Shown here: positions 2,986 to 61,760 of the stretch, piece after piece | Numbering within the stretch: position 1 is the first letter of the stretch | Layout of the letters: every line of letters begins with the position of its first letter | Origin: Artocarpus heterophyllus | Lineage: Eukaryota; Streptophyta; Magnoliopsida; Rosales; Moraceae | Assembly (NCBI GenBank): GCA_025403435.1 | Contig: CM046337.1 | Location: 7,501 to 71,500, forward strand | Direction of reading: 5' to 3' | Length of the DNA stretch: 64,000 nucleotides | The notes under the pieces: generated by a model | Told to the model about the DNA's origin: nothing | What the model saw: the letters and a program-made list of their open reading frames with translations, nothing else | Database searches by the model: none | Program-made: the position numbers and the translations under genes

Positions 2986-3868
2986 GTGCACTTCTTGTAG
3001 CCCCTTTCTTAATGTGTTTAATTTGCTTTCCTTTAATACAATCAATACACACACCGAGATCAGTAAAATCTAAATTCGAAAGAATTTCATTCTTTACTAA
3101 TCTCTCTATTCTTTCCTTGGATATATGACCCAAGCGTTTATGCCACAAGTAAGCAGAACTTTCATCAACTAAACTCCGTTTAGTTCCAATACTTCGATGC
3201 ATGGTTAGCAAAGTTTCAGCAAAAAGATTATCAAACTTTAACTTATATAAACCATCATAAAGGATTCCAGAGCCAATAAAATTATTATTTTTATATAAAC
3301 TGAAAGATCCAAATCCAAACTTACAATAAAATCCCGCTACATCAAGTTTTGATAAAGAAACTAAATTGCGAAAAAAAGTAGGTACATAAAGAGTTTGGTA
3401 TAAATCAAGATAATATCCAGTATCTAATGTCAAGCGATAAGTGCCAATTTCTTCCACTGAAGCTTTATCTCGATTCCCCATGTAAATAAAACTTTCATTT
3501 GCTCTTATGGGTTGGATCGTAAGGAATCCCTGCATCGTATTAGAAATGTGAGTAGTTGAACATGAATCAATCCACCAAGTATTATAAGGAACTTCAGTTA
3601 AATTTGATTCGAAACAAACTAAAGCACAAGGCTTACCTTTCTTTTCGAACCAAGCCTTACGTTTTTGACAATCTTTCTTTAAGTGCCCAAATTTGTTACA
3701 AAAATAGCACTTAACATTGTGTTCCTTCTTGTGGATTTGAGTTGACTCATTCAGGTTATGCAACTCCTTCCTGAACCCTTTCTTCTTGTTCTTTCCAGGC
3801 TTCTTTTTAGTGCTCTTTTCAGCCTTTTGATTCACAAGATGATCGGAATGAGGTTTCTGATTCTTCAA
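2986..3868 (-). pseudogene. Copia A nucleocapsid knuckle, protease, GAG-pre-integrase
   Basis: A lysine-rich stretch leads to a CCHC zinc knuckle (CYFCNKFGHLKKDC, C-X2-C-X4-H-X4-C) at about 3716-3675. The protease active-site region follows at about 3565, and then the HHCC zinc-binding GAG-pre-integrase segment (LWHKRLGH to CIDCIKGK) near 3160-3035. The protease motif reads IDSCSTTHI where family members have D-S-G. The catalytic-loop Gly is Cys here, so the protease is probably inactive. Confidence 0.85.
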
Positions 3869-3880
3869 TCTCGTCTCCTC

Positions 3881-4489
3881 TTAGATAAGCATACTGGTCA
3901 ATTCATTAATATTCCATTTATCTTTAATTGTGTTATAGCTCATCTGGAATGGACCATATTGTTCAGGAGGAAGCGAGTTGAGAATGAACTGTACTAGAAA
4001 GTACTCATCCACAGACATCCCCAAAGACTTTAATTTTGCTGCTATATTTGTCATTTCAAGGACATGCTCATGCATAGTATAAGAACCATCAAATTTCATG
4101 TTGGTTAATTTAGCCATTAATGTACCAGCAAGAGACTTATCAACAGTTTGAGAGCACTCTTCCACTAGTTTCATAAATTCCTTAGCACTTTTAGTCTTGG
4201 AAAGAGTACTTTTAATGTTGTTTGCTACTGTCATTCGCATGAACATTAAGCTTAATCTATTAGACCTTTCCCATAATTTATGAAAAGTTTTCTCCTCCTC
4301 ACTACTAGCATCAGTAATAGTAGTGGGTTCCTTATCTTGAAGTGCTAAATCAAGATCCAAGACACCTAAGTGATATTGGACTTGTTCGCACCAATCAGAG
4401 AAATTCAATCCATTAAATAAGGGAACGGATGAAGCATGCGAATGCAGAGAAACAGAAACATATACTACAAATATGCAAGAAACATTCAT
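3881..4489 (-). pseudogene. Copia A gag (UBN2-type) fragment
   Basis: The segment starting PLFNGLNFSDWCEQ and continuing through LGVLDLDLAL, AKEFMKLVEE, LMAKLTNMKFDG, LKSLGMSVDE and ILNSLPPEQYGPF is the plant copia gag domain. The last roughly 20 residues at the N-terminal side (4489-4430) look unlike gag and are probably read-through of leader sequence. It ends in a frame break just before the zinc-knuckle frame. Confidence 0.85.
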
Positions 4490-5345
4490 ACATTAATGCT
4501 TTGAGATGATCACATAATTAGATTTAAACTAAGACAGTAATTATATATCCTAGTTCTCCTTTGGGTGATACTAAGACATACAAACTATAAATGATGCTAA
4601 TTTAAAAGTAAAAATTTAATTTGGTAATCATAAATAGCCTAGTAAAAATGCTTGCTATCTTTGGATAAACAAACAAAAATAATAGGACATATTAATTACC
4701 AACTATTATATTCATCAATTATAAAGAAAGCTAATCAACCTTTGGGCGATTCCTAAGTTCTTATAATAGATGAAATTCAATGACCCATGATCTATAAATG
4801 TCATCTTAATCATAAGCATCAAAATTCATGAGTAATTGAACTTTTGTTTCTCAATTTGAAAATTACTAAACTTTAAAGTTTGGCCACTTTGGTGACTAAC
4901 AAACTATAATAATGTAATTTCAAAATTGGAAACAATACTTTTACTTGTTCCATAAAATAAATAAACGTATAGTTAACCATAAACCAACATGCAATATATA
5001 AATACTTTCTTTTCGGCTTTGGCAAGCCCATTACTTATGTTGCCACAATACATATTCCTTCCATAACTCGTCTCAGAAAAGCATTTATTGAAAAGAAAAG
5101 AAAAAAAAAAGTGTCTTCACTTTGACGTACAGGAACAATAAATGCAATTGAAGAGCAGTTATCTATGAATTACTATTATACGTGTTTGTTCTTTAATTTT
5201 GCTGCTTTTCTTTATATACATGCGCCATTTTTTTTTAATAAACAATTAGTGGCCATAAGCGTTAAACATGCATATCCAGGGAGACAAAGAAACGACGAAA
5301 AGAAAAGAAAACTTTTACTTTTCCTTGTTTTCTTTGCATGCCCAG

Positions 5346-6390: not shown

Positions 6391-8265
6391 CATAAGCCCA
6401 AATCAGTCTCAAGAGAGCCTAGTCACTATGATTAAGGTTCTAGAAGATTCATATTGATGATGGCGCACAATTCAAGTAAATTGTGGGGCCAATTTGTTAG
6501 ATTTGTAATTTTGGGACACTTTCCAATTTTGGATCGACACGTGAGCACCATGTCATTAAGTTCAAGCCTCGTCAACAATTTATTTTTTTATGTAATTTTC
6601 CTATTTTCTTAGTTGTCAAATACGGTTTTGTTAGGCATGAAACAAACCAGATACTTTCCCTCTTCTAGAATATGTTAGGTGCATTTTAAGGGAAAAATTA
6701 ACTACTTTCCTTTTTTGTTATTTCTGTTGGATTATAGCCAGCAAAGTTCAGATTTTAGGGCTTAATTTCACATGGGAAAAACACCAATTAAGGGATTTCC
6801 AAGTCAGCATTCACTTAGGGGGTTTTTGGGTTGAAAATCGTCTCTCATATATTTGTAAACACTTTGTTATTTTAAAAGAAAAGGAAAATCAGATTATCAT
6901 TCATGAATTTGGTGAGGTAGATTATCATTCATGAATTTGGTGAGGTTTTCTTGTGTTCTTCTTATTTTCTTGAGAAGACTCTTCAAACTTATGAAGATTA
7001 AACTTGTTGACTTATCATCTAGAGTTTTAAGTGTTCTTGCAATTCTAAGTGTGGCGTCTTACTATCCATGGTTCTCAGTTCGTGTCTTACTAAATTACGG
7101 GTCAAAGCTCAACAAATGTGTGTCTTAAGGGATTAGGGTTCAATTCTAGATTTGGTGTCGGGTCTCGTTGCGTTAGTCAGGGGGGTTCATATCAGTGTGT
7201 CTCCATCCTTTTTTCTCATTTTTTTGGGTTTTTATAATCCTTTTTGCTCTTTTTCTTTTCTCCCTTATGTTTTTTCTCCCTTCTTTTTAATTTGCACATT
7301 GTACTTTTTTTGTTGCTTTCTCTACCATATTATCCATTGTATTTTCAAAAAAAAATTTCAACTATTTTCTAATGTGTGTCATTGAAGTACTTTTTCCTTC
7401 TAATTTATCCTCATTCCACATTCTTTGAGATCTACTAAACTATTGTTTGTCAAGTGTAACCTCTAACTTTTGTTTATGTTTCTTCTTATTTTCAACTTCC
7501 CTTCATTTTGTCATTTTGGTTCTCAAATATTTCCCTACGTATATTTTTTTTCTAGTAACACTTTTAACTACAATTTGTCTTATAAATGTCATTCCTCAAA
7601 TTTGCCCATTGAAATAATTTCTCTCACATATGTCCTTACTCAATTATTTTTTAATGTGGTCTTCTCAATTGTTGTTTTCTCGTCATAACCCCTGATTAAT
7701 TTTCTCTATGATTACTATATTATTTAAGACATTATTTTCTATGCGCATTAACATGTTCTCCCTCACACAAACATTTAGCATGTTTTTGAAAATTTTGTTC
7801 GAACCAAAAAAATTCCACTTCAAATTGGTTTTGCTATAGTTTTCTTCCATAGAATTTGAATTGTTATAGTCTTTTTGTTCAAATTGACAATTCAAACTAA
7901 CAAAACATGTATTTGATCTTTTTTTCTGTTTATTCTCAAATCTTATGTCTTTAAATGAATCTAATTGAACTTTTCCTCCTTTAATATATTTTTATTCAAT
8001 ATTCACTAGTAGATAATAAAAGTCTAAAAAAAAAGCATTTGGTGTCGGTGTAAGTAAATCTTTTAGGAAATATGGTTATAACTAAAACTTTTAAACTAAA
8101 AACTGTAGCATGTAATAGCTTTACATTGTAGCTTACTTTTTTTTAACATTGTAACATGTGAAAGCTTATACTATAGCAATCAAAAATTTAATTAAAAGTT
8201 TGAATTGGTTTTGCCAAGTACCCAAGTAATGTCATTATCATTAGCCTAATAAAATCAAACACCCT
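6391..8265. other. AT-rich retrotransposon tail and unassigned sequence
   Basis: No gene is supported here. 6391-7190 is probably the untranslated 3' end or LTR of the gypsy element upstream, since it follows directly from the polypurine tract. 7190-8040 is T-rich with short spurious frames. 8040-8220 carries paired GTAACATGTG-AGCTT blocks that resemble 15,850-15,930, suggesting a shared small repeat family. Confidence 0.5.
6891..6946. repeat. Perfect 28-bp tandem duplication
   Basis: Two identical 28-nt units (6891-6918 and 6919-6946), beginning AGATTATCATTCATG, lie head to tail in the tail of the gypsy remnant. Confidence 0.9.
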
Positions 8266-23659: not shown

Positions 23660-24514
23660 GTGAGTTTGGTTTTTTCCCTCTTCATTTCTTCTCTTTTTCT
23701 TTTCTATTTTCTCTACCAAATTCCAAACTTGGTACCATTTTCGCCTTATTTTTTGTTTGTTTTGTTTCGTTTCGTTTCTGAGAACGATGAGTCTCTTTTT
23801 TGTTTTTGGTTTCTTTGGTGTTAATAATCCCTGTTTTTGTGTGTTTCTGGGCGACTTTTTCTTAGAAAGAGTGTGATCGCTTTTAGAAGTGGGGAAATTT
23901 TTCTACTGTAAACTTAAAAATGTAACCTTGAATCTGTTCTAACATTATTCATTGAAAAATTCTCATTCTCCTTGTTATTCTTCGCTTCTACAATGTTGGT
24001 TATGAAATTTGAATTTATAAAAACACAAAAAAGAATATGAGTTGTTTGTAATTGCAAAAAACAAAAATAAAAACCATCGTAAAGGGTGAACAGTTTAAAT
24101 GCTAAATTAAAGCATTTGCAGACAGTTTATGGCACGAAACATATTAAGAATGCCCTCATATTTTGCAGGTTTTTTTTTTTTTGGAAAAAAATAAATATAA
24201 AGTGGTAGTAGTAGAATTATCATCCTTTCATATTGATTATTGAATAGCGATTTTTTTGAAACTGGTGCTTTTACATTCTTTCTTATGTGACTGATTTATG
24301 GCTCTTGCTTCTATTCTCTCTGTATTTTGCCTGCATTGTCCTTTTCTTTTCTTTTCTTTTCTTTTTGCCTTAAATATGTAGAAAACTAGGAGTGTTATGT
24401 TATAATTGTAGTAGTAAGTAGAAAGATTTTGGACCTTATTCTCATTGTTTTGAAAACAGTTGGAAGGAAGCGGAAAAAAAGTGACGTGTTGTTGATGTGT
24501 TAATAGTCTTAAGT

Positions 24515-24925
24515 ATGTCGGCTGATCCTCGTGCGCCAATGCCTTTTATGGATGAGGATGCTTCTTCGGGCTCTGGAGATGATGCGAACATGTTGGACGG
24601 GAACAAGCGCCAGTCAGGAATGCCATCAAGTTCAGGTCGTCGAAAGAGAAGCCGCAAGGCCACTGGCGATGCCATAGTTGATGCCATGCTAGAAATAGCT
24701 GCTGCTTCGAAGATGAGGGCAGCGGCCATCATGAAAAATGAGGAACGGTTTTCTATTAGCAAATGCATTAAGGTGTTGGATGAGATGCAAGGTGTCGATC
24801 AAAGGATCTACTTTTTCGCTTTGGATTTGTTTGAAAACCCCAACGCCAGAGAAATTTTCATATCCCTTAAAAGCGAGAGACGCTTACCATGGTTGCAAGG
24901 AAAGTCTGGCGCTTCCTCTAGTTGA
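24515..24925 (+). CDS. ALP2-like protein (Harbinger Myb/SANT ORF1-derived C-terminal domain)
   Basis: An intact 136-residue frame from the first ATG after a predicted leader intron. Residues 1-55 are acidic, Ser-rich and then basic (GRRKRSRKA), a likely nuclear signal. Residues about 60-130 contain [15 protein letters not shown], then [35 protein letters not shown] and LPWLQGK. This block is typical of the C-terminal half of plant Myb/SANT-like proteins derived from ORF1 of PIF/Harbinger transposons. In Arabidopsis such proteins include ALP2, a partner of ALP1 in the Polycomb PRC2 complex. The N-terminal Myb domain is absent, so DNA binding is not expected. The next gene downstream is the ORF2-derived ALP1-like gene. 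A poly-T/poly-G run lies just after the stop. Confidence 0.72.
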
Positions 24926-24956
24926 ATTAGGCCGAGAGTTATGCTTTTTTTTTGTG

Positions 24957-24960
24957 TTTT

Positions 24961-24991
<31 letters not shown>

Positions 24992-24994
24992 GGG
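24957..24994. repeat. T(14) followed by G(24) homopolymers
   Basis: Fourteen T residues at 24,957-24,970 run directly into 24 G residues at 24,971-24,994, 32 nt after the stop codon of the ALP2-like gene. It is a mutational or assembly-error hot spot; the true length is uncertain. Confidence 0.9.
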
Positions 24995-25227
24995 TGTGTT
25001 GTACAATTGAGTAGACTTGAGAACTTTAATTTTTGTATCTAGTACGACTTTATGGCCTTGTCTTTTTCCTTCATAATTTAGATGATAGTTCGCAGATATA
25101 GCCTTCATTAATTGATTTGAAATGGCCAGTTATTGAAGCCATGACAAGCTGCAATGCTTTTAAAAGTTCAACTGTTACTGTTTCTTGTACAACATTTAAT
25201 TCTTTTTATGCAGATACGTGAGCTGGA

Positions 25228-25314
25228 ATGCATGATTTTGACCTAGAACTGGATGAGATGGAATTGATTGCAGTTGCTGTCGGCTACAGTTACTATAACA
25301 ATGTCATGAGCTAA
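25228..25314 (+). CDS. 28-codon upstream frame, in frame with the ALP1-like gene
   Basis: ATG at 25,228 opens 28 codons (starting MHDFDLELDEMELIAVAVG) ending in TAA at 25,312-25,314. After the TAA the same frame continues without a break into the ALP1-like protein. The acidic start followed by YYNN resembles the usual N-terminus of ALP1-like proteins. A splice acceptor (TTTATGCAG) ends at 25,213. Either this is a lost N-terminus cut off by a nonsense mutation, or a real upstream ORF that limits translation of the main frame. Confidence 0.55.
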   Translation: MHDFDLELDEMELIAVAVGYSYYNNVMS

Positions 25315-25353
25315 CCTTGTCATAGCTTGTCACCCAAACGAGGATGTGGTTTT

Positions 25354-26594
25354 ATGAGTGAAGTGCTGAATGGTAATGACGATGTTTGTCGGGAGATGTT
25401 TCGGATGGACAAACATGTATTTCACAAGCTGTGCGGCATTCTGCCACAAAGAGCCATGTTGCGAGATACTGCTGGTGTTATGATAGAGCAACTGGGAATT
25501 TCCCTCAACATTATAGGTCATAACGAGCGCAACAGAGTAATCCAAGAGCGATTCCAACACTCGGGTGAAACTATTAGCCAGCATTTTAATAATGTACTGA
25601 AGGCAATCAAGTCATTGTCGCGTGAATTTTTACAGCCACCAGCTCTCACCATTCCTGCTGAAATCCTTTCAAATCAAAGATTCTATCCATACTTCCAGGT
25701 TCATATTCAAGCACATATATTTCTCGTCTGTGTTGTAATTGGCCAGTCATCTATTAACTTGTTTCTTATTGTTATTTCAGGATTGCATTGGAGTCATTGA
25801 TGGAATGCACATTCCTGCCCATGTCCCAGCCAAAGATCAATCTGGTTTCCATGACCGAAAAGGAGTTCTTTCACAAAATGTGTTGGGAGCTTGCACATTT
25901 GACCTGAAATTTATTTTCATTTATCCCGGTTGGGAAGGCTCTGCTGCAGATTCCCGCGCATTAAGAGCAGTTCTCAATGACCCAGATCAAAATTTCCCCC
26001 AGATTCCAGAAGGTTTGAGCAGTCAGACAGTACCATATTAGAATCATCCTACTTATAAATTATATCCCTTGAAGTATTTTTAAACAAGTGCTTTTTCTTT
26101 TTTTTTATAACAATGTGTTAGGCAAATATTACTTTGTGGACTCAGGATACTCGAATATGGAAGGATTTATTGCTCCATATGAGGGAGTCCGGCATCACCT
26201 TCATGAATTTAGAGGTGCTAATCAGTTAACTAGAAATGCAATGAAACTATTCAATCACAGGCATTCATCTCTAAGGAATGCCATTCAGAGGTCTTTTCAC
26301 GTGTTGAAGACTCGCTTTCCTATTCTCAAACTTGCTCCTCAATATGCCTTTCACATTCAGAGGGGCATAGTTATTGCTGCGTGTGTTGTGCATAATTACA
26401 TCCGCTATGTGGAAGACAAGGATTGGTTGTTCTCTAGTGTGGAAGGGATTAAAGCGGACGAATTGCCTGAGCTAGATGAACAGCCCGAAATCCAGTTAGT
26501 TTCTTTAATACAAGAACAACTTGCCTTTTCAATGAGAGATTCGATTGCCGCTGCAATGTGGGATAACTTCATAAATGAATGGGATGACTGGTGA
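25354..26594 (+). CDS. ALP1-like protein, domesticated PIF/Harbinger nuclease
   Basis: Three exons (25354-25698, 25781-26012, 26122-26594; 1050 nt, 349 residues) encode a DDE_Tnp_4 / Harbinger-nuclease protein of the ALP1-like group. ALP1 of Arabidopsis is a PRC2-associated nuclear protein, not an active transposase. The N-terminal part has FRMDKHVFHKLC, a DTAGVMIEQLGI segment and FQHSGETIS. The catalytic positions read Asp122 (VIDGMH), Asp172 (GSAADSR) and Gln248 (AIQRSF) where active Harbinger nucleases have Glu, so cleavage is not expected. C-terminal helix bundle and acidic tail end in EWDDW. The start used is the first ATG after an in-frame TAA at 25,312; an N-terminus of about 40 residues is lost or separately translated. 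No terminal inverted repeats flank the gene. Confidence 0.82.
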
Positions 26595-49819: not shown

Positions 49820-50198
49820 TGTAATGACTAGGGAAATTCATTAATAAAATCTAATATTTAAATTGGGTTTAATTAATGAATTTACCCTTAAAAATTGTAA
49901 TTTTTGTAAAAATTGTGACAAGGTACAAATAAGCGGTATTAACTAGATGTTTCACTGCGAATGTGATACAATGTTGGATATTTTTAATACAGATTTTATG
50001 AGTTTGATTACTCAAAAATTTGTAAATAATATCCATAAAATGAATTTTATATCACAATTAATTATAAAATTGTGATACAGACGAACAGGTACTTGGTATA
50101 CGAATAAGACATAGAGTCCATCGAAACCCAACTTAGTGTAAAAACGAGGCCGATGCAGTATAAGTATACTGCTAAGTGAAAACGCAGATATGAAAAAC
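49820..50198 (+). mobile_element. Left part of 3.0-kb LTR (family L2-like, copy d)
   Basis: It begins TGTAATGACTAGGG after the copia linker and is interrupted at 50,198 by the 8.97-kb element. The other part is 59,166-61,760. Outer flanks AGTAG and AGCAG (one mismatch) may be its target duplication. Confidence 0.75.
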
Positions 50199-52551
50199 TG
50201 TGACACCCGTTATTCTCCTAACGGGTATTGAGGTAATTAAATTAATTTTTAATGTATAAAAAAAATTGCTTCATTTAAATTTATTTTATAATATTTATTT
50301 TTATCTATTTTTAAATTTTCTAAAATTCTCCTATATTTATTTAGTATGATTACTAAAAAGCCTTAGAACTTCTAATAAATCTCAAAAATGTCATATTGGC
50401 ATTATGTGTGTTAAAGTCTTTAGATGAGACATAAGGATATCTTTTCCAACTACTCTTGACCCTCATTTTCTTTATTTCCTCCGTGACATGCTTCAACATG
50501 TCTCCTCTATAATTGTTTCTATCACTTCTTTTCAAAGACTTCATCTTTTCTTCCTTTCTCTTCCACGGTTCCCACACTCTTCTTCTCATTTCTTTGCTGA
50601 AGCAAAATACTTAGAGAACTTCTTCAAGGCAGCCATAAAAATCAGCCATCATCACCTCCATTTGAGCAAGAATTTCAGTCATACCGAAGTAAAGGAACCT
50701 GTTTTGAAGCCATTTCAAGCTTCCAACTAACCATAATCCGAGGTTAGAATCTTATGAACAAATTTAGTCTTTCATTTATAAATTTTCTTTTATACTAAAG
50801 GATTATTCAAATTTGCGTTCTTAAACCTAAGTATATGTTTGTTGCTATTTTGGAGCATATGTATGAAGTCTAAGTGTATATGCCCTAGACAGAAAATTTA
50901 TATTGTTAAACTTTGTAATACCTCTATGGGCAGTGGTTATTTCTTGAAATTCTAAGATTAAATTAAAATGAATTTTATGAATTGGTTTGCATATTTGAAA
51001 AGTAGCATCCTAGGCTTTCTAACGAGCTATCATAAACCTAAATCGGAGTTGTATTTTATTTTCTAAGAATTATTTAATTTTTGTATTGGAAACTAGTAAA
51101 TCTACCAGTTTGTTATGGTATACCAGCTGCTAACCTGAACCAAGAACCCATCTTTGCTCACCACCTAATTCTTTAATGTCTTGCAACCTTTCCAATATTA
51201 TCCTAAGTGATTGATGAATCTTATTAGGGACTAAAACATATAGATTACTTGTTCACATTTTATATTGTGTTAAGACAAAAATTGTTTACTGTGGTATTCA
51301 AAAGAGATTTATATAAAAGCTTTAATGGCATACTAGTAAGATAAGTTTACACATGATTTATTTATGAATGTAGTTGTATGTTGTGCTTTAGTTTTAATTG
51401 TCCTTATGCACGCCTTAGGATCAAGGGAGTATGGAGCTAACGTTAACTGATTCCAGGATTAAAAGATTGTTGATAAGCTTAAAAGGTAGGGATTCTATTA
51501 CTCATCTTTTGTGAGGTTTTTATAGAATTAAAATTGATTGTTTTGCCGCAATATATATATATCTATGTTGAACTGATATTATATGATTATCACATATGAA
51601 ACTATGACATAGACTCGTCTTGTATTGTACGGCGAGGAACATAATGAATTGACACATGTTATAAATTGAGAAGCATGGTTAGGAAAACTAACTCTATTGA
51701 TAATGATTCAATATAGAGAAATTGTGAGACATGAAGAGGGCGACGGTTACGTCCTTGGGCATGAATACCCTAAAAGGTAAAATAGGGGGAAGGCGATGAC
51801 GCTTCCTTGGGTTGAAAGTCCCAGAACACACTGTACAGGAATCGATTTGGTGAGGACTCGGGGCTTGATGTCCCCTCACCGGAACACCCTTGGAATGTTT
51901 ATAGGGTGATCAAGTGCGCCCATTTGGGTTTCGATGAGTTGAGTGATACTCAATTTAACATGGATACCTAGGAACAATGATGATTGGTAATATTTGTATA
52001 AATGTGTAATTATGACACTTGGTAATGATTAATTACGGTATCCATAAGATGTGATCATAATAAACCTTATAATCTGGAATATGATGTAACCTACTAATCA
52101 TGCAGATTTTAATGTGGTAATGATAGAGGTGAGTAATAGCTTTCTCTACTGAGCATAGTGTTGCTCATTCCCTTATGTTTATATCTTTTCAGGACTCACT
52201 AAGTGTGAGGTGGCTACGAGAAATATAGTTGAGGAAGTGATCTAGCTATATTACATTGGGACTGCTTCAATTGTTGAGAATGTTCTTCATGATAATGTAA
52301 GCATCAATTGTTACTTTCTGTGACTGTATTATAATGTGTTGAGGGTTAAAATGATGATGACAACAGTTTATTTTATTAAATTTAAGGTGCTACATTAAAA
52401 CTGTGGTTTATTTATCGTTTATATTTTTATTTTTGAGTTGAGAGTTTTCATTTAAGTCCCGGGAAAATTTTAATCTTTAAGGTTTTACTTTTATTATTTA
52501 TTTTTATTTTATCTCATTAAAAACTGTTAACCCCCATATAGGGGCGTTACA
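50199..52551 (+). repeat. 5' LTR of the LOG-carrying element
   Basis: Identical to the 3' LTR except for one base (T at 52,033, C at 58,647) and one AT unit in a dinucleotide run near 51,551. Short frames inside are repeated in both LTRs and are not considered genes. Confidence 0.95.
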
Positions 52552-52558
52552 GAATTTT

Positions 52559-52571
52559 TGGTATCAGAGCC
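52559..52571 (+). promoter_or_regulatory. Primer-binding site, initiator Met tRNA type
   Basis: TGGTATCAGAGCC lies 7 nt after the 5' LTR and is the standard sequence complementary to the 3' end of plant initiator Met tRNA, where minus-strand DNA synthesis starts. Confidence 0.92.
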
Positions 52572-53699
52572 TAGGTTCGGTTAACCTAGGGAGTGTAGCA
52601 CCACTTTAAAAAATATATTTTTGAGATGGTTTTGAAGCTGAATTTTCAGTGTCATCATCAAAATGAACCTTCACATTGATTTATACAGTCTAGAAGGATG
52701 TAACATGGAAAGGCCATAGAATGAAAATATCAATAGTTATATGAGTACAATAATTATATAGAAGGAAAGTATTAATAGTTATAAGGGAATGATAATTATA
52801 TGGAATGAGTTTATAAGTAGAATGCTTATGAGAGATTCGTATAATATTTGGATCTATAAGCATATCTAATTCGTATAAACGATGAGAAATTCGTATAGAT
52901 ACGAGGATTTAAAAGCCTTTTGTCTCGTGAAAAACAATAAGAAATATAAGGTTTGATTTATTGATTTTAAAGTTTGACATAGATATGCCAAATTTTTCGT
53001 AATTGATTCAAACCTAAGTAATGATTATGTGTGGATTCGATGGAGCACATAAGTGTCAATGTCTTTTCTTAAAAGTTCTATATATTTGAGGAATATGATA
53101 TAAGTTGGGAATCATGGTATTGAATCTTGAGAGAAATAAATGTTAGACTTTTGGTCTGTTGAGACTGTGTAAAGTCTAGAATGCATGAATCTCAAAATTG
53201 GAATATTTCGTTACGTACATTGTATTTAAGTGTATCAGTGAATCTTTTGGTTACCTAAGGTTTTGTTATATGAGGAAATTATATATTGTATGAGTAGAAT
53301 TATGGGGATTGTAGATGTTCTTAAGTAGTAACATCAAGTGTCTTTGTTCATTGATATGGTCTACGTTGAAAGACGTAAATCGTATTGATTTCAAGGTTAG
53401 TCACATTCTAAACCCTTGGTAGCAATGATGATGAATCCATTGATAGATGTTAAGTATTAGGAATAACATATGGGTGTATGCATTGTTCAATAAGGTTTTG
53501 ATTAAAACAAAATTATTTGAGTTGCTGGAAGATTATGTTGTTATGAAATGATTTTAAATATCATTCAGGAAGATCCTTGTTGTCGTTAAATTAGATTTGT
53601 TGTTTATAGTTAACTTTATCTATAGTGGACTTTGAATTGGGTTTAAGATTTATACAAATTGGTTTTCAATTTTATGTTTGTTATTTAACTCGTTCCAAA
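52572..53699 (+). other. Non-coding leader region of the LOG-carrying element
   Basis: About 1.1 kb of AT-rich sequence without an open frame or recognisable retroviral domain. Gag would be expected here in an autonomous relative. Confidence 0.6.
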
Positions 53700-54039
53700 T
53701 GTGTTAAGGCCCGAAACAACCTGACCATTTTCAACTTAGAACATTTGGGCCTAGTTCAAATCTTAAATCAGTTTGATTCACACTGTCTCTCCCACGTGGT
53801 CTCTATACGTGTCATATACAGTGGTTTAATTAATGTTTACAAATACGTTTACTGTGTATAGGAGCTTATTTCTCCGAGTTCACTTTTTCTCTCTTAATTT
53901 GTTATTTTTTCTCTAAATCGCAAATCCTCTTCTTTTTCATTAGAAATTCTTCTTTTCCTCTAAAAGAAGAAGGAATTCTAGGATTCTGCAATTTACTATC
54001 TTAATTTTTCCTTTCTATTTACTCTTCTTTCATCTCATC
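53700..54039 (+). promoter_or_regulatory. Promoter- and leader-like segment before the internal genes
   Basis: It contains a G-box (CCACGTGG, 53,792-53,799) and a second ACGT core (TACGTGTC, at about 53,807). A pyrimidine-rich leader-like stretch (53,875-54,035) then leads to the ATG at 54,040. These look like features of a plant gene promoter rather than of a retrotransposon interior. Inferred from motifs only. Confidence 0.4.
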
Positions 54040-54561
54040 ATGGACCCAAAGTACCAACACCTGAGAAAGTATTTCCCATCACTCTCCCAAAAGATTCTCA
54101 GAAAGAAATACAAGGCTAGAATTACTCGGTTGTGGATTCTTATGCGTTTTGGTATCCCTTGTGATGTGAGAATGTTGATAGAGGGGAAAATCCGTCCGAG
54201 TGACTTTAGTCAAGATGTCGGTTTACCAGGAACAGGTACCAGTCGTAGTGCAATGAAAAGAAGAGCTCGTGCCATCGTGGTCACTTGTAACAAATGTGGA
54301 AGACAAAATTGTAACGGTAAATGTACTTCACCTGGTTATATGTCTACGAATAGAGAGGATAAAATAAGGTTTTGTAGGGATGGACTTTCAAAGGAGAACT
54401 TGGATAGCATCCATCCTCCTCTCCACGGTCACCCTAGTAGATATGTTCAAGGAGCTATTTTTAAACTCTGGCCTAAATTTTATACAGAAAGACAACGCCT
54501 CAGGAATATGGTATTTCTAGATCCTGTTTGCCAAGCCATAAGAAAACTGGATGGGGAATAA
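54040..54561 (+). CDS. Unrecognised basic protein with a Cys cluster
   Basis: An intact 173-residue frame inside the LTR element. I do not recognise the family. Residues 1-35 are strongly basic (RKKYKARITRL). A hydrophobic segment with IPCDVRMLIEGK follows, then a Gly/Thr/Ser linker. Next comes the basic run KRRARA (73-78) and four Cys at 83, 86, 91 and 95 (C-X2-C-X4-C-X3-C), probably metal-binding. The C-terminal third is aromatic and basic (FKLWPKFYTERQRLR). The layout, a basic run followed by a compact Cys cluster, suggests nucleic-acid binding. It is loosely like retrotransposon nucleocapsids and the small cysteine-rich proteins of some plant RNA viruses (carlavirus type); this resemblance is weak and unproven. 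Not a standard CCHC knuckle. Confidence 0.6.
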   Translation: MDPKYQHLRKYFPSLSQKILRKKYKARITRLWILMRFGIPCDVRMLIEGKIRPSDFSQDVGLPGTGTSRSAMKRRARAIVVTCNKCGRQNCNGKCTSPGYMSTNREDKIRFCRDGLSKENLDSIHPPLHGHPSRYVQGAIFKLWPKFYTERQRLRNMVFLDPVCQAIRKLDGE

Positions 54562-55206
54562 GTCATCGCTCTATAAAGGTTATTTAGTCTTTACTTATTT
54601 GAAGCAGTTTTAGCTGATGTTCAACAGTTTGTGTTTTTCTTTTACTCAGAATATTTGCTTTTGTGTTTGAAATAATTGTGATTATTAGATTGATACAGTA
54701 AGTGTTAATATCTTATTTAATTTATGATTTTCTTAAATATATATATATAATAAACTATATTATCTTATCAGACACGTTACATACGGTACAGTAATATGTT
54801 TGAATTTTGAAAAGCTTATCTAGATATTTCAAGATTTGTGTCTCAAATTTCAAAAGTTCTACAGTATTTGTCGTTTATATTAAATTTCTCGACTTGGTGT
54901 ATATTTGTCAAAAAGTCTACAGTTGTGTCATGAGGGTCTTCTGTCGAATTGTTCTCAATTGTCAAAAGTTATACAATTAGAGTCTAATCTTTTTCAAAAA
55001 GTGAATCAGATTTTCTGAAAACTATCAATCACCTTATCTTACTTTCTTATCCGCACAATATTTTGTTTAAATCTTTGGATTACCTTTTCATTACCTACTC
55101 GTCTATCTCTTTAGCCCTTTTTGTATATTTCTCATCTTTAAAATCTCATATAGAACCCGAAGTCTAAGTGGAGCAGACATTAAACAACCACTTCTATAAA
55201 CCAAAT
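54562..55206 (+). other. Spacer between the two internal genes
   Basis: About 645 nt, AT-rich, no long frame. It contains a TATATATATA run at about 54,739, about 465 nt before the LOG start codon, which may act as a TATA element. Confidence 0.4.
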
Positions 55207-55857
55207 ATGTCTACCTCCCAGTCCACGAAGAAAATAAAGAATGTCTGTGTCTTTTGTGGTTCCAGCCTTGGAAAAGATAAAGCTTATTTAGAAGCTGCAA
55301 ATCACTTAGGGCAAGTCCTAGCACACAAGAAGATTAACATAATCTATGGGGGTGGTAGTATAAAAATGATGGTAAATATGGCACTAGCAGCTAGGTCTAG
55401 CGACGCTACTGATGTAAAAATTTGGCCTCATATTCCAGTTGAAGGAAACCTTTGTAAGGAAGCCATAGGTAAGGGAGAAGGAGTCAGGAGTATCCCTAAA
55501 AATTTTAAAGACATAATCTATAATTCTGATGCTTTTATAGCATTACCTGGTGGTCTAGGTACTCTTGAGGAAATATTTATAGTTGCTTGTGGGCAATTGT
55601 TGGGCTTTTATTCCAAACCTTTGGGACTGCTGAACGTAAAGGGTTTTTATGACGGTCTTTTAAAATTTCTAGATTACGCTGTGGAAGAAAACATCACTAC
55701 AGAATCGGAGAGACAAATCTTTGTCACTGCTTCAACAGCTGAGGAATTGATAGATAAAATGCAAATCATACATCCAGAATCCGACACTGCAACATCCAAG
55801 CTTGAATGGGAAAGGGAAAGCCGGGAGCGGCCAATTGATTTGAATCTCCATCTGTAA
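55207..55857 (+). CDS. LOG-like protein (cytokinin riboside monophosphate phosphoribohydrolase family)
   Basis: An intact 216-residue intronless frame from ATG 55,207, the usual LOG length. LOG enzymes cut cytokinin riboside 5'-monophosphates to free active cytokinins in the cytosol. Visible are VCVFCGSS (13-20), YGGGS (47-51), SDAFIALPGG (107-116) with PGGLGTLEE (114-122; Glu122 is the expected catalytic Glu), KPLGLLNVKGFYDGLLKFLD (137-156) and a TAEEL segment. Missing or changed are the GLMG that normally follows GGGS (here SIKMMV) and the Met-His-x-Arg-Lys block before SDAF (here SIPKNFKDIIYN), which contains the catalytic Arg. Activity is therefore doubtful or altered. The C-terminus ends DLNLHL, an LxLxL EAR-like motif. 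Plant LOG genes have several introns; their absence is consistent with capture from mRNA. Confidence 0.85.
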   Translation: MSTSQSTKKIKNVCVFCGSSLGKDKAYLEAANHLGQVLAHKKINIIYGGGSIKMMVNMALAARSSDATDVKIWPHIPVEGNLCKEAIGKGEGVRSIPKNFKDIIYNSDAFIALPGGLGTLEEIFIVACGQLLGFYSKPLGLLNVKGFYDGLLKFLDYAVEENITTESERQIFVTASTAEELIDKMQIIHPESDTATSKLEWERESRERPIDLNLHL

Positions 55858-56796
55858 TCTTTTTGTTTTATCTTTGGCATGTAGGCATGTGTGTCCGTAT
55901 TTCGTGTGTTACGAATAACCGTTTACCTTGTATTCTGTGTTTCTTGTGGTACGTCGTTGTTCAATCTTTTAGATTCATTGAGCCTAATGCCGGGATGGCT
56001 GGATACGGAGTACTTGATGCTCTCGAAACGCATCCTTCTTAAGGTCCGATCTTTTGTTTATCGATGTTTTTGTATCCTCTAAGCATGCATGATATGGATA
56101 GCTGGTATACGGAGTGCCTTGTACTCTCGAAACGTATCCGTATTATGTTTGTAATGTGTAATATTCTGTTAATATTATGTGGAAGTACCAAAGTCAGTTA
56201 TGGGGATATTCCATATGAAATATGAGTATATTATTTGGATTGAATGTTTGTGTCATGAGGATAGCTGTTTAATGAAAAATATGTCGGGTATGTTTGCAAC
56301 CAGAGATTTCGTTTAATATCTCTATGAATAAGTTTAATGTATGGTTTTGAATATAAGTGTTTGTGATATATGTTTTATGATTATGTTTTAGTTTATTAGT
56401 TGAGGTATGAAATCAAATATATTTGACTTTTCCTTACTCAAAAAGGAAAAGGAACCTAAAGATGAAGTATATAAAATTTCTCTGGCAATCTCCTTAAATG
56501 TGATTGTAATCACAGTCCATGGACAATGAAGGACTGGAATCATGATACGGTCAATATGTATGCCTGATCAGATTCTTAGACTATTATACGGTGTTACAAG
56601 TTGAAACTTGTCAGAAATACTCTCATTGAGGGATTTAGGAGTAAGATTTATTATGCAAGTAAATAAGTGGAGATACGATGACTTAAATTTGGAGGACAAA
56701 CAACATTAACGGTTTAGACTCGGAATTGGAATCATAATGGAATTAAAATTTTTACTAGTATTGCTAGAATTGAAATTTCGAGGACGAAATTTCTTT
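55858..56796 (+). other. 3' interior of the LOG-carrying element
   Basis: Non-coding. Two related blocks at about 55,995-56,037 and 56,098-56,143 share GGATA-CTGG, ATACGGAGT and CTCTCGAAACG-ATCC. Then AT-rich sequence runs to the polypurine tract. Confidence 0.55.
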
Positions 56797-56809
56797 AAGG
56801 GGGGTAGAG
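56797..56809 (+). promoter_or_regulatory. Polypurine tract
   Basis: AAGGGGGGTAGAG directly before the 3' LTR, the plus-strand primer site. The preceding TTCGAGGACGAAATTT is typical of Tekay/Del gypsy elements. Confidence 0.9.
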
Positions 56810-56810
56810 C

Positions 56811-59165
56811 TGTGACACCCGTTATTCTCCTAACGGGTATTGAGGTAATTAAATTAATTTTTAATGTATAAAAAAAATTGCTTCATTTAAATTTATTTTA
56901 TAATATTTATTTTTATCTATTTTTAAATTTTCTAAAATTCTCCTATATTTATTTAGTATGATTACTAAAAAGCCTTAGAACTTCTAATAAATCTCAAAAA
57001 TGTCATATTGGCATTATGTGTGTTAAAGTCTTTAGATGAGACATAAGGATATCTTTTCCAACTACTCTTGACCCTCATTTTCTTTATTTCCTCCGTGACA
57101 TGCTTCAACATGTCTCCTCTATAATTGTTTCTATCACTTCTTTTCAAAGACTTCATCTTTTCTTCCTTTCTCTTCCACGGTTCCCACACTCTTCTTCTCA
57201 TTTCTTTGCTGAAGCAAAATACTTAGAGAACTTCTTCAAGGCAGCCATAAAAATCAGCCATCATCACCTCCATTTGAGCAAGAATTTCAGTCATACCGAA
57301 GTAAAGGAACCTGTTTTGAAGCCATTTCAAGCTTCCAACTAACCATAATCCGAGGTTAGAATCTTATGAACAAATTTAGTCTTTCATTTATAAATTTTCT
57401 TTTATACTAAAGGATTATTCAAATTTGCGTTCTTAAACCTAAGTATATGTTTGTTGCTATTTTGGAGCATATGTATGAAGTCTAAGTGTATATGCCCTAG
57501 ACAGAAAATTTATATTGTTAAACTTTGTAATACCTCTATGGGCAGTGGTTATTTCTTGAAATTCTAAGATTAAATTAAAATGAATTTTATGAATTGGTTT
57601 GCATATTTGAAAAGTAGCATCCTAGGCTTTCTAACGAGCTATCATAAACCTAAATCGGAGTTGTATTTTATTTTCTAAGAATTATTTAATTTTTGTATTG
57701 GAAACTAGTAAATCTACCAGTTTGTTATGGTATACCAGCTGCTAACCTGAACCAAGAACCCATCTTTGCTCACCACCTAATTCTTTAATGTCTTGCAACC
57801 TTTCCAATATTATCCTAAGTGATTGATGAATCTTATTAGGGACTAAAACATATAGATTACTTGTTCACATTTTATATTGTGTTAAGACAAAAATTGTTTA
57901 CTGTGGTATTCAAAAGAGATTTATATAAAAGCTTTAATGGCATACTAGTAAGATAAGTTTACACATGATTTATTTATGAATGTAGTTGTATGTTGTGCTT
58001 TAGTTTTAATTGTCCTTATGCACGCCTTAGGATCAAGGGAGTATGGAGCTAACGTTAACTGATTCCAGGATTAAAAGATTGTTGATAAGCTTAAAAGGTA
58101 GGGATTCTATTACTCATCTTTTGTGAGGTTTTTATAGAATTAAAATTGATTGTTTTGCCGCAATATATATATATATCTATGTTGAACTGATATTATATGA
58201 TTATCACATATGAAACTATGACATAGACTCGTCTTGTATTGTACGGCGAGGAACATAATGAATTGACACATGTTATAAATTGAGAAGCATGGTTAGGAAA
58301 ACTAACTCTATTGATAATGATTCAATATAGAGAAATTGTGAGACATGAAGAGGGCGACGGTTACGTCCTTGGGCATGAATACCCTAAAAGGTAAAATAGG
58401 GGGAAGGCGATGACGCTTCCTTGGGTTGAAAGTCCCAGAACACACTGTACAGGAATCGATTTGGTGAGGACTCGGGGCTTGATGTCCCCTCACCGGAACA
58501 CCCTTGGAATGTTTATAGGGTGATCAAGTGCGCCCATTTGGGTTTCGATGAGTTGAGTGATACTCAATTTAACATGGATACCTAGGAACAATGATGATTG
58601 GTAATATTTGTATAAATGTGTAATTATGACACTTGGTAATGATTAACTACGGTATCCATAAGATGTGATCATAATAAACCTTATAATCTGGAATATGATG
58701 TAACCTACTAATCATGCAGATTTTAATGTGGTAATGATAGAGGTGAGTAATAGCTTTCTCTACTGAGCATAGTGTTGCTCATTCCCTTATGTTTATATCT
58801 TTTCAGGACTCACTAAGTGTGAGGTGGCTACGAGAAATATAGTTGAGGAAGTGATCTAGCTATATTACATTGGGACTGCTTCAATTGTTGAGAATGTTCT
58901 TCATGATAATGTAAGCATCAATTGTTACTTTCTGTGACTGTATTATAATGTGTTGAGGGTTAAAATGATGATGACAACAGTTTATTTTATTAAATTTAAG
59001 GTGCTACATTAAAACTGTGGTTTATTTATCGTTTATATTTTTATTTTTGAGTTGAGAGTTTTCATTTAAGTCCCGGGAAAATTTTAATCTTTAAGGTTTT
59101 ACTTTTATTATTTATTTTTATTTTATCTCATTAAAAACTGTTAACCCCCATATAGGGGCGTTACA
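56811..59165 (+). repeat. 3' LTR of the LOG-carrying element
   Basis: 2355 bp, the direct repeat of 50,199-52,551 with one substitution and one 2-nt length difference. Confidence 0.95.
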
Positions 59166-61760
59166 AAAACATTACGTTTGGCCTCCAATGGTAAACCGAA
59201 AGTAAGTAAAATAGTTTATACAGTCTAAGCTTACAAGTTTGTACTGATTTGACCATGGCAATGTAGGAAAAATACTGTGTGGTGAGAAATTATACAGTGT
59301 AAATTTTTGGGCCCCCACAAAGTGGACACCCATTAGCTTTTTATTGGGCCACCAAGCCATGAAAGATGGCCCAATCCTATGGTGACACTTGGTAACCCAA
59401 GGGGTTACTTGTTGAGTAACCAAAGTGGATAAGAAGCATTAGATGCAAGCTTATCACAAAAAAATTTTCTTTCTTCTTCTTCCTCAAGCCACGACAGCCA
59501 TTAGAGAAGGTTTTCAAAAAAAATTTCAACCCCAAAACTTTGCAAAAACAACCCCACTTAAGTTCAAGAGGTGAGATTCAAGGAATTTCCACAAGTTTAA
59601 GGTAAAAACCTAAACTTTTTCAAGAGTTCTAGGGTTTTTCTTGGGGAAAAAGAAAGGAAGCTAATCTATGGTGTTTTTGCATGAAAATAGTGTTTTAAAA
59701 GGAGATCTAAAGGAGCCTTGGAAGGCTAGATATCAAAAGTGCTATTTGGGGTAAGTTTTAATTTTAAAGTTTTGAAATTTTTTTTGTTTTCTCTAAAGTA
59801 TATGGGTTCTTGAGCTAGTTTTTGGGTTGAACCCCTAGAAATATGAAGTATAACATGTTGATGTTGTGAAATTAAGGTTTAAATGTTGAAAAATGGTAGT
59901 TTGTGTAAATTATTTTTGCAATTTTAGTGTTAGTTTTTCAAAAGTGATGCTAGATATGATAAATGATTCCAACAAAGGTTGAAACTACATATACAGGGAT
60001 AGATTTTCACCAAAATACCCTAAGGACTAAATTGAAAGAAAAAGTTTTCCCTTGGTAGATTTAAAAAATGCCCAAAAACACCCCTGTACAGTGAGAATTT
60101 AGGAAAAGTTAAAACACAAAAGTTGTAGATCTCGATGAAACTGTTAGGCATAATAGACGGTTCATCAAAAAACTCAACCGTTTGTGAGATTTTGATTTTT
60201 TTCAAGAATTTGTTAAAAGTGAAAAAAATGTTAAAATGACAAAAATGTCATTTTTCAAAATGATTTAAGGTATGGTACTTTGAGTAAAAATGGTCCTTAT
60301 GAAAAATAGGAAATTTGGTTTAAAGAGATAAAATTTAGCCTTGGGGGCAAAATTGTCAAAATTTTCAGTTTAAGGACTAAATTGTAAAGTTTTATGAAAA
60401 TGGGGCATAGATGAGAAATATGGAGATCCGACCCACTAGGGTGTTATTTTAAAATTAGTATGTGGATATTTTTGTAAGAATAACGAAATTGAGCTCGGGT
60501 AGGTTAGTAGACTCATGGAGGACAAAATCGTCATTTTTGTCCGAATAACCTGAATCACTCCGAAATGTTACAAATAGGGAAAAGAAAATGATTAGAAAGA
60601 TTTTCGCCCTTCGTTAGTGACGATAAGGTAGAGTTAGATAGAAATAAGAAAACTAGTGGTTTTCGGAGTTGTATACAGTCATGCAACTCAATTTAATAAT
60701 TAACGAACGTTTTGTATTGAAACATAATAGAATATTGACTAATGGCTTTGAAATTGGTCAACAGGATCCTAGAAGTCTAGGACAGAGGAAAATCAAGGTT
60801 GATTTACGCGGTACACAAAATCAAGTAAGTACCATCCCACCTACAGTATGGAATTGTAGGTATAGAATGTGACATGTGTATATGTATACCTGTGTGTAAA
60901 TCAAAGTGTATACCTATGTGTATGTTATGATATGAGTATCTATAAGTATGTTGATGTATACTTGTGAGTATATTATATTGTATACCAGTGTGTATATTAA
61001 TGTATGCCTGAGAGTATAAAAGTGTGTACCTGTGTGTACAGTATTGTACAAAAACATTTATGTTTTGCGTATAACATGTGATTATTGCTTCATGCATGGT
61101 ATGATAACCATAATAAATAGACTGGTAATTATATCACCAGAAATTGAGAAAAGTGTCGTACTGACTCCTGACTCAAGAGGAATTTAAGGATACAATATGG
61201 TCACGGTGTTACGTAGACCTAAGTGCGCAATGGTACGAACACTTGGGCCCTAGTTAAAGATAAGAAATGAAAATGATAAAGGAGGTTTATAAGAAAGCAT
61301 AAATGGATCATGCATTTTATTGAATGTGCATGTGGGTTATATGGGACTTACTGGGCATAAGCTCATTAAGTATTTCATGCTGTAGGTATTCCGATGAAAA
61401 GATCAGAATAATTTTATTGATGAGCTGGCAGAGGGATGATTGGTGTGCAGATTGGGTATGAGATTCCGCCGCTATTAAGTTTCCGCTGTATCGTGTTTTT
61501 ATTATTTTGAAATGCAAGGTTTAGAAAATGGTATTGTATAAGAAAAGTTGTTATGTAAGTACAAGTATAAACTTGTGTTTTCAAAGTTACTAAAACTAGT
61601 AATGTACGAACGAGTGAGTTAAGTAAATATATGTAAATATTTATGTTTCCAAAGGTATTAATTCTTGTCTGTGAAAAAAAAATTTTGCTAAATTTTCTCC
61701 TTTCTCCTATACGCAAGTAAGAAAAGTTTTATCACAGCCCAAAAAAGGCAGGTTGTGACA
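59166..61760 (+). mobile_element. Right part of 3.0-kb LTR (family L2-like, copy d)
   Basis: It continues from 49,820-50,198 after removal of the 8.97-kb element. Similarities to copies b and c include GGGCCACCA near 59,345, CACAAAAGTTGTAGA near 60,115, the TAAGCTCATTAAG-TTCATGCTGTAGGTA block near 61,360, and the end GTTGTGACA. It is shorter and more diverged than b and c. Confidence 0.75.
60865..61055. repeat. Minisatellite-like GTATACCTGTGTGTA repeats
   Basis: About five diverged units around GTATACCTGTGTGTA, spaced about 30-45 nt apart, inside LTR copy d. Confidence 0.7.

Follow-up and report, generated by a model that had tools for sequence, protein, structure and literature searches.

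The window, a 64,000-nucleotide stretch of the Artocarpus heterophyllus genome, contains an LTR retrotransposon whose boundaries lie exactly at positions 50199-59165 (Table 1). This element, a copy of what is here termed family A, has the features of a non-autonomous LTR retrotransposon, including paired TG...CA LTRs that differ by one mismatch and one 2-bp (AT) indel, a target-site duplication, a primer binding site that we take to be of the initiator tRNA-Met type, and a polypurine tract, with GAGGACGAAATTTCTTTAAGGGGGGTAGAGC directly before the 3ʹ LTR. All of these parts, and the coordinates themselves, had been proposed in an earlier note on this DNA and are borne out. The note also described an interior that codes for a LOG-like protein and a basic Cys-cluster protein without any recognisable retrotransposon enzyme, and the list of frames agrees. 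Stop-to-stop frames of at least 90 aa within 50000-59500 are those of the LOG-family protein, the Cys-cluster protein (NABP) and one per LTR; the LOG and NABP frames are the sole interior frames of that length, and gag-pol is not among them. A further 19 interior frames reach at least 48 aa; ten of them were scanned and gave no Pfam match at E ≤ 0.1, and the element gave no Rfam match at E ≤ 1.

Table 1. Features of the family A element in the window.
Feature	Position	Strand	Remarks
5ʹ target-site duplication	50194..50198	.	AAAAC
5ʹ LTR	50199..52551	+	2353 bp, TG...CA
Primer binding site	52559..52570	+	TGGTATCAGAGC; 7 bases past 5ʹ LTR
Leader	52571..54039	+	without its own frame of at least 90 aa
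NABP	54040..54561	+	173 aa, basic Cys-cluster protein
Spacer, NABP to LOG	54562..55206	+	
LOG-family protein	55207..55857	+	216 aa, single uninterrupted frame
RNA hairpin, copy 1	55992..56036	+	6-bp outer stem, GGAGU inner stem, GAAACG internal loop
RNA hairpin, copy 2	56095..56140	+	
Polypurine tract region	56776..56810	+	with GAGGACGAAA signature
3ʹ LTR	56811..59165	+	2355 bp
3ʹ target-site duplication	59166..59170	.	AAAAC

Family A is a non-autonomous LTR retrotransposon that has amplified recently. A search of the 985-Mb host genome with a 53-base LOG-core pattern (at most 3 mismatches) finds 2926 places, compared with 0 for the reversed pattern, and the 38-base junction of LTR and primer site occurs at 3861 places, compared with 0 for its control; given these empty controls, the counts are not due to chance. 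Among 20 LOG copies sampled from the 150 matches listed, both LTR ends are present in 18 (the 5ʹ LTR of one being shortened), and 15 of these 18 are flanked by perfect 5-bp target duplications, every one different. The earlier note had named a genome search for further copies as the test of mobility, and these copies, which share both LTRs and the LOG frame and differ in their target duplications, indicate that the LOG frame moves with the element. At six loci (from four elements) chosen by their LTRs, the genome-wide 5ʹ LTR search having used the first 1002 bases as query, the same interior adjoins the LTR in all. Every family A copy read is a complete or partial LTR-NABP-LOG-LTR unit in which no gag-pol frame was recognised. 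The LTRs of 18 copies, including that in the window, show 23 mismatches over 38,590 sites, and eight of the 18 show none, in keeping with the young age that the note had assigned to the element.

The LOG frame matches Pfam family PF03641 (E 9.5e-22), and its best Foldseek match is AtLOG3 (E 8.1e-17). The PGGxGTxxE motif is kept as PGGLGTLEE, and with it the protein may still bind nucleotides. At the catalytic Arg column (MHxRK), the window LOG has Asn; among the LOG matches listed that contain the anchor motif, Arg occupies this column in all 13 canonical proteins and in 83 of the 94 others. Additionally, all five prenyl-pocket positions named in the available part of PMC4979012 are changed. 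With catalytic Arg and prenyl pocket both lost, the protein is, judging from its sequence, probably a pseudoenzyme. Its disordered C-terminus (...IDLNLHL) bears a short EAR-like LxLxL motif, an ending found in 91 of the 107 non-canonical LOG matches listed and in none of the 13 canonical ones. The window LOG is placed outside the canonical group, together with LOGs mostly ending in LxLxL; among the 120 LOG matches listed, one is 99% identical to it and the others at most 49%. The LxLxL-ending proteins that group with it include one from Populus trichocarpa named LOGL10, and database LOG proteins with this ending may be transposon rather than hormone genes. The 17 LOG loci found in IMG/VR (25-62% best-segment identity) were taken as presumably distant microbial LOGs.

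NABP has a pI of 10.2 and a Cys cluster of the form CX2CX4CX3C, putatively of zinc type. On the strength of profile matches, it is probably related to the nucleic-acid-binding proteins of carlaviruses and allexiviruses. The window NABP alone gives weak Pfam matches under both cut-offs (Viral_NABP, 0.013; Carla_C4, 0.11). In set A1, at E ≤ 1, Carla_C4 is matched by all eight proteins (best 7.3e-6) and Viral_NABP by seven of the eight (best 6e-7). Relatives P0223 and P0154 lie above the Carla_C4 cut-off and P0194 above that of Viral_NABP. IMG/VR holds no NABP relative, a PDB search with NABP and P0223 gave no meaningful match, and the AlphaFold model of NABP (pLDDT 45.5) is too poor for a structure search.

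The same two genes are found in a second carrier, family B, which we take to be Athila-like. Its copy L057 encodes gag (PF03732, E 1.7e-5), a protease-like frame (profile E 0.028, under its cut-off), NABP and LOG, the last two in the order seen in family A, and NABP precedes LOG in all five family B copies read. The primer site of L057, TGGCGCCGTTGCCGGGGA, is of non-chromovirus type and presumably of the Asp-tRNA type. In this one 9.9-kb copy, no frame of at least 90 aa resembles reverse transcriptase (RT) or integrase (INT) by eye. Downstream of NABP-LOG, family B has a doubled RNA hairpin, as does family A. The tails of the two families align with a Smith-Waterman score of 34, where 95% of 500 shuffles score at most 27 and the maximum is 37; this similarity does not exceed all shuffles, and it is covariation that supports the hairpin. 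Given the same gene order, the protein homology and the doubled hairpin, NABP-LOG looks like an accessory cassette common to two element lineages. The earlier note had pointed to simple capture of a host gene, as in Bs1 of maize, but this does not fit a LOG that lies outside the canonical group, is paired in fixed order with a flexivirus-like NABP and recurs in family B.

Family A is without a recognisable RT, INT or chromodomain, and its RNA would be packaged, reverse-transcribed and integrated by the proteins of a chromovirus-type element. Borrowing from such an element is proposed because the primer site and the polypurine tract are of that type. The tRNA-Met primer site of family A is that of the chromovirus lineage, though it is not exclusive to it: in the available text of PMC6317226, such sites are found in most chromoviruses and in Ty1/copia, and never in non-chromoviruses. 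The polypurine tract signature is common to family A and long-frame chromovirus-type elements of the same genome, matching (33 bp, 91%, E 6e-7) an element with a 1578-aa frame that includes an SH3_Tf2-1 domain; two such families (2 of the 150 matches listed) share the signature and have unrelated LTRs. A gag-pol partner with the same LTRs was not found among the LTR-chosen loci, a 13.2-kb LTR pair, two chromovirus-type 3ʹ ends and the contig-1 junctions, gag-pol being judged at the loci read by recognisable frames. The LTR pair 13.2 kb apart, a candidate for this partner, is a tandem of the LTR-NABP-LOG-LTR unit. On contig 1, 12 of 64 LTR/primer-site junctions lack the exact LOG pattern; three of these were read, two being diverged NABP-LOG and one N. 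Further odd LTR spacings, of about 5.7 and 6.3 kb, occur among the LTR matches.

Several other readings of the locus can be weighed against these data. That a host LOG gene came to lie between unrelated LTRs through a one-off insertion or an assembly join is refuted by the number of LOG-core places, the different target duplications and the common interior of the LTR-chosen loci, and no point in its support was found. The earlier note had further suggested that the element could spread a cytokinin-related enzyme. An active, cytokinin-activating LOG would accord with the LOG fold, the intact frame of normal length and the retained PGGxGTxxE motif, but with the Arg-to-Asn change and all five named pocket positions altered, such activity is predicted to be highly improbable; in the LOG of C. 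glutamicum, replacing AMP-binding or catalytic residues by alanine leaves hardly any activity (PMC4979012, in the part available). NABP could alternatively serve replication, as a zinc-knuckle-like chaperone that helps to bring element RNA into the particles of a partner, accompanied by LOG in a structural role. Its basic character, a Cys cluster recalling the CX2CX4HX4C knuckles of retroviral nucleocapsids and its position after the gag and protease-like frames in family B speak for this role. However, the profiles that it matches belong to viral CRP/NABP families, with no zinc-knuckle family among those listed, the spacing and residues of the cluster differ from those of knuckles, and LOG and its tail are left unexplained, making this role rather unlikely.

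The two genes could also be neutral cargo, with frames intact merely through a recent burst from one or a few master copies. The nearly identical LTRs of family A would be expected from such a burst, the copies read had been selected for their similarity, and stops occur in several copies: in NABP of L017 and L021 and in LOG of L028 in family A, and likewise in several family B LOG matches. On the side of selected cargo, the dN/dS of family A NABP is 0.26 for shared variants and 0.57 for singletons, and the gene pair persists in the more diverged family B with a pooled pN/pS of 0.37 for LOG and 0.25 for NABP (five copies, L059 with a stop in NABP), ratios biased low by the choice of LOG copies, in both families, by protein similarity. 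Moreover, NABP relatives occur in plants of what we take to be at least five families, and a cotton gene model fuses NABP with a LOG end. Neutral cargo is thus considered unlikely.

The explanation that we favour, and hold to be reasonably probable, is that family A is non-autonomous, runs on borrowed chromovirus-type machinery and carries a shared cassette of NABP and pseudo-LOG. This cassette would have been transferred from an Athila-like to a chromovirus-type element. That it makes no cytokinin and would instead dampen host control of the element is plausible, our judgement falling just short of an even balance. NABP would resemble carlavirus CRPs in binding RNA or in entering the nucleus; the pseudo-LOG would provide a scaffold for binding, and its LxLxL tail would possibly recruit TOPLESS-type corepressors. 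More tentatively, and with some doubt on our part, NABP and the EAR-tailed pseudo-LOG may form an old, portable Ty3/gypsy counter-defence cassette, with NABP shared with plant RNA viruses by capture in either direction; the cassette may have crossed from an Athila-like element into a chromovirus-type parasite that retained hardly anything besides it and has even so expanded, in recent times, to about 3000 LOG-core places.

The extra genes of plant retrotransposons have long posed a puzzle. According to the available text of a review, PMC7264820, most antisense extra genes are of unknown origin and without similarity to viruses. In the cargo of family A, viral relatives can be recognised for one gene, and the other belongs to a family with solved structures, which renders both testable. 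If NABP acts like carlavirus CRPs in suppressing silencing or altering transcription, plant retrotransposons and RNA viruses would have counter-defence genes in common, and an element without gag-pol at about 3000 LOG-core places would show the worth of such genes. If the portable-cassette reading is true, this would be a retrotransposon selected for defence suppression and not for replication enzymes of its own.

LARD-type non-autonomous LTR elements and Bs1 of maize have LTRs, a primer binding site and a polypurine tract without gag-pol, and Bs1 has captured host sequence on board. Family A differs from both in its two conserved frames, its abundance and a cassette common to another lineage. 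Two Athila-like elements with similarity to LOGL4 were reportedly described by Steinbauerova et al. in 2011. A YgdH/LOG extra domain has been documented in Ty3/gypsy elements of Citrus sinensis, C. clementina and Populus trichocarpa (PMC9289625, which, in the part available, cites Steinbauerova et al. 2011), and these elements likewise have a LOG-family frame within gypsy LTR retrotransposons. The marker of that screen was reverse transcriptase, because of which an RT-less element would be missed. Family B, with its gag, protease-like frame, LOG and presumed Asp-type primer site, may be of the same kind as the Citrus and Populus elements. The presence of LOG in gypsy elements is therefore already published; for an RT-less carrier, a virus-like partner gene and a lost active site, no report was found in the available literature text, section 12 of PMC9289625 being silent on an NABP, on a lost active site and on an LxLxL tail, and its main text, as available, containing neither "carla" nor "nucleic acid binding". 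Orchids have gypsy elements that carry an AlkB RNA demethylase gene, likewise an accessory gene of a kind known from plant RNA viruses, but these elements are large, keep gag-pol and encode an enzyme active in vitro (PMC9289625, same portion). Carlavirus CRP/NABP proteins (Carla_C4, Viral_NABP) and NABP both have a basic stretch immediately before the CxxC cluster, whereas the Cys spacing of the carlavirus proteins is CX2CX12CX4C (PMC8839810, in the part available). NABP is longer and retrotransposon-borne; carlavirus CRPs are silencing suppressors, one of which is linked to a host transcription factor. Similarly, plant LOG phosphoribohydrolases (AtLOG3, 2a33) have their fold and PGGxGTxxE motif in common with the window LOG, which differs from them in its lost catalytic Arg and prenyl pocket, its LxLxL tail and its one uninterrupted frame.

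The LTR retrotransposon in the window is a mobile, multicopy unit with two reading frames and no recognised replication genes. A single base and a 2-bp AT unit distinguish its LTRs, AAAAC lies on both outer sides of the pair, TGGTATCAGAGC is found 7 bases past the end of the 5ʹ LTR, and a purine tract directly precedes the 3ʹ LTR. The LTR, AAAAC, primer-site and purine-tract coordinates were checked and place the element exactly where the earlier note had it. Only two interior frames reach at least 90 aa, one for a basic Cys-cluster protein (NABP) and one for a LOG-family protein (LOG). There are 19 further frames of at least 48 aa, and the 10 of these that were scanned matched no Pfam family at E ≤ 0.1, in agreement with the earlier description of an interior without a recognised retrotransposon enzyme. 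The upstream flank (49820-49870) looks by eye like the beginning of an LTR of the chromovirus-type family at locus L055, and insertion of the element next to or within an LTR of that kind is possible. Elsewhere in the window, frames resemble by eye a copia-type gag-pol in several pieces (398-4492, minus strand) and a PIF/Harbinger-type transposon pair of DNA-binding protein and nuclease (24485-26591, plus strand).

Coordinates of the window element and of the hairpin pair in L057, a copy from a second element family
Feature	Position	Detail
5ʹ LTR	50199-52551	2353 bp
3ʹ LTR	56811-59165	2355 bp
NABP frame	54040-54561	173 aa counted from ATG
LOG frame	55207-55857	216 aa counted from ATG
RNA hairpin pair, window	55992-56036 and 56095-56140	behind LOG
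RNA hairpin pair, L057	about 6676-6780	behind LOG

Both frames move with the element; for LOG this had been proposed. Across the whole host genome (985 Mb, 334 contigs), a 53-base LOG pattern (≤3 mismatches) occurs in 2926 places and the LTR-end/primer-site junction in 3861, each against a control of 0. In frame searches, for which only the best-scoring part was listed, 149 of the best 150 of 6181 LOG candidates are free of stops and 98-100% identical, and stops are found in 0 of the best 150 of 5818 NABP candidates. Both LTR ends are present in 18 of 20 copies fetched from the 150 scored LOG places (L014 and L015 lack an end; the 5ʹ LTR of L020 is shortened), and 15 of these 18 have perfect 5-bp duplications, every one distinct, with mismatches in L019, L022 and L027. 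The same interior adjoins the LTR at six loci chosen by LTR (L031-L036, four elements). On contig 1, the exact LOG pattern lies 2-5 kb downstream of 52 of 64 exact LTR/primer-site junctions; three of the other 12 were fetched, and two carry a diverged NABP-LOG pair while one reads N.

The youth ascribed to the element is likewise borne out: LTR pairs from 18 copies (the window copy included, L014, L015 and L020 left out) mismatch at 23 of 38590 sites, with zero mismatches in 8. If substitutions accumulate at 7e-9 to 1.3e-8 per site per year, the ages come to ~20-45 thousand years, biased young by the choice of copies by similarity. LTRs of the fetched copies fall into two length classes, ~2360 and ~1974 bp, both young; a subfamily including L011, L012 and L016 lacks LTR positions ~785-1162. 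One locus, L037, holds a tandem interior-LTR-interior inside two outer LTRs, probably from recombination between copies.

The window protein has the LOG fold. Its best phmmer match is 2a33 (At2g37210; E 2.5e-43), which is also the best Foldseek match (E 8.1e-17, TM 0.86 by target) of an AlphaFold model with mean pLDDT 74.4 and a disordered tail. In C. glutamicum LOG, Arg99 and Glu122 are the proposed catalytic residues, Met96, His97, Lys100, Glu125 and Trp129 line the prenyl site, and alanine at AMP-binding or catalytic residues nearly abolishes activity (PMC4979012). With this numbering transferred via the motif, the aligned window LOG has I-P-K-N-F for the canonical M-H-x-R-K, Ile at Glu125 and Gly at Trp129, and keeps Glu121/122 and PGGxGTxxE. 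The catalytic column holds Arg in 13/13 canonical LOGs and, among the 94 other database LOGs that have the anchor motif, in 83; in the remaining 11 it is replaced by K (5), Q (2), N, S, L or P, and the protein with Asn is P0001, which is 99% identical to the window LOG. Rather than the spreading cytokinin-related enzyme suggested earlier, the window LOG is, by these substitutions, probably a pseudoenzyme.

The protein ends in ...IDLNLHL; the EAR repression motif has LxLxL among its forms (PMC6479872). Among 120 LOG matches listed of 7859, an exact LxLxL end is present in 91 of 107 non-canonical versus 0 of 13 canonical proteins. An unrooted 38-row tree, with 14 of 35 inner branches open, splits canonical LOGs (9) from the others (29) at 100/100 and places the window protein among the 29 on a long branch (1.45). 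Populus proteins with LDLSLxL ends (P0005, P0009, P0021 and other entries), one of them named LOGL10, group with the element LOG; here annotation may have mistaken transposon genes for hormone genes.

A second NABP family (rows matching 1-182), carried by Athila-like elements, emerged from a genome search with P0142, an NABP from an unnamed ENA cluster that by eye is close to Populus P0143. L057, the copy read longest, carries frames for gag (PF03732, E 1.7e-5) and for a protease-like protein (PF13650, E 0.028, which is below cut-off), then NABP and LOG (55% and 50% to the window proteins). Its LOG retains the catalytic Arg (GIPERIRDM), its primer site is TGGCGCCGTTGCCGGGGA, and no RT/INT-like frame was found among its frames as judged by appearance. 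NABP lies upstream of LOG in 5/5 copies read, and a search with this LOG scored at least 150 places, those listed being 83-100% identical, with stops in some. In other plants, a Gossypium barbadense gene model, one of 121 NABPs tested, ends in a LOG C-terminus (E 1.5e-7); a second LOG match in this set was weak (E 0.003) and was taken as chance. An Orobanche minor gene model fuses NABP to a stretch that we take, by its motif, to be protease-like and that matched no profile. Some NABPs (P0194, P0154, P0221) extend beyond the usual end with a common FKPxLD(V/I)KPxEDVSxNxNY, and P0221 then ends in NLSLSL, resembling a LOG tail, as though LOG had been spliced on.

The tRNA-Met primer is not used by non-chromoviruses and is used by most chromoviruses and Ty1/copia (PMC6317226), and two long-frame chromovirus-type elements match the window polypurine region, one over 33 bp (91%, E 6e-7) and the other over 36 bp (81%, E 3e-4). 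For these reasons, the NABP-LOG pair appears to be a cassette present behind both chromovirus-type and Athila-like ends. Because LOG (YgdH) domains are reported in other gypsy consensuses, from Citrus and Populus with RT used as marker (PMC9289625), and the window LOG is derived, transfer would have run from Athila-like to chromovirus-type elements. No report of NABP, the NABP-LOG pair or an RT-less carrier appeared among the openly accessible papers listed in searches on LOG, retrotransposon and carlavirus topics.

The two families, whose LTRs are unrelated, also share two tandem copies of one hairpin behind LOG; 19 of 20 fetched copies have two and the remaining copy one. In four sequences, the same four from which the structure was drawn, its 11 pairs are standard in 44/44 cases, with both sides changed in 4 pairs. 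Shuffles scored as high for paired cells in 2/500 cases, for covariation (0.636 vs 0.363) in 2/500, for pairs changed on both sides in 35/500 and for further pair types in 204/500; in slid controls, pairing drops to 41-66%. Folding single sequences gives only a slight advantage over shuffles (z -0.9 to -2.5), and the window element has no match in Rfam. That the hairpin serves packaging or export is a guess.

The element would be mobilised by a chromovirus-type partner. That the cargo acts against host control is the reading we prefer, at a little short of even chances: NABP would serve as an RNA-binding or nuclear factor, and LOG would be a catalytically dead scaffold whose tail binds a corepressor. 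A nucleocapsid-like helper is unlikely. An active cytokinin enzyme is very improbable.

Slightly more doubtful than a helper is a neutral passenger, on which the selection ratios bear. In the window family, the LOG ratio of 0.07-0.09 is biased, with copies mostly chosen by LOG similarity, and NABP in the same copies has a ratio of 0.26 among shared variants and 0.57 among single ones; copies with stops in NABP (L017, L021) or LOG (L028) were excluded. In the Athila-like family, rough pooled pN/pS comes to 0.37 (LOG) and 0.25 (NABP), from five copies taken from LOG and NABP search rows and hence biased, with L059 retained despite a stop in NABP.

The window NABP alone matches Viral_NABP (E 0.0095) and Carla_C4 (E 0.1) under the cut-off, with the unrelated MCM_OB (E 0.089) ranked between them. 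In its first alignment, at E ≤ 1, Carla_C4 is matched by 8/8 members (best 7.3e-6) and Viral_NABP by 7/8 (best 6e-7), and the element's Cys protein accordingly looks virus-like in sequence. At E ≤ 0.01, a profile search yielded 566 proteins; the 120 relatives listed include Populus, Xanthoceras, Gossypium, Hibiscus, Acer, Rhamnella and Orobanche, and their clusters have as many as 566 members. Carlavirus CRPs bind nucleic acids, suppress silencing and determine symptoms, their basic nuclear signal lies directly before the zinc cluster, and the chrysanthemum virus B protein has been connected with cell proliferation and with a transcription factor of the host (PMC8839810). The element NABP resembles these proteins in having a basic stretch followed by CxxC but differs from them in the spacing of the later cysteines.
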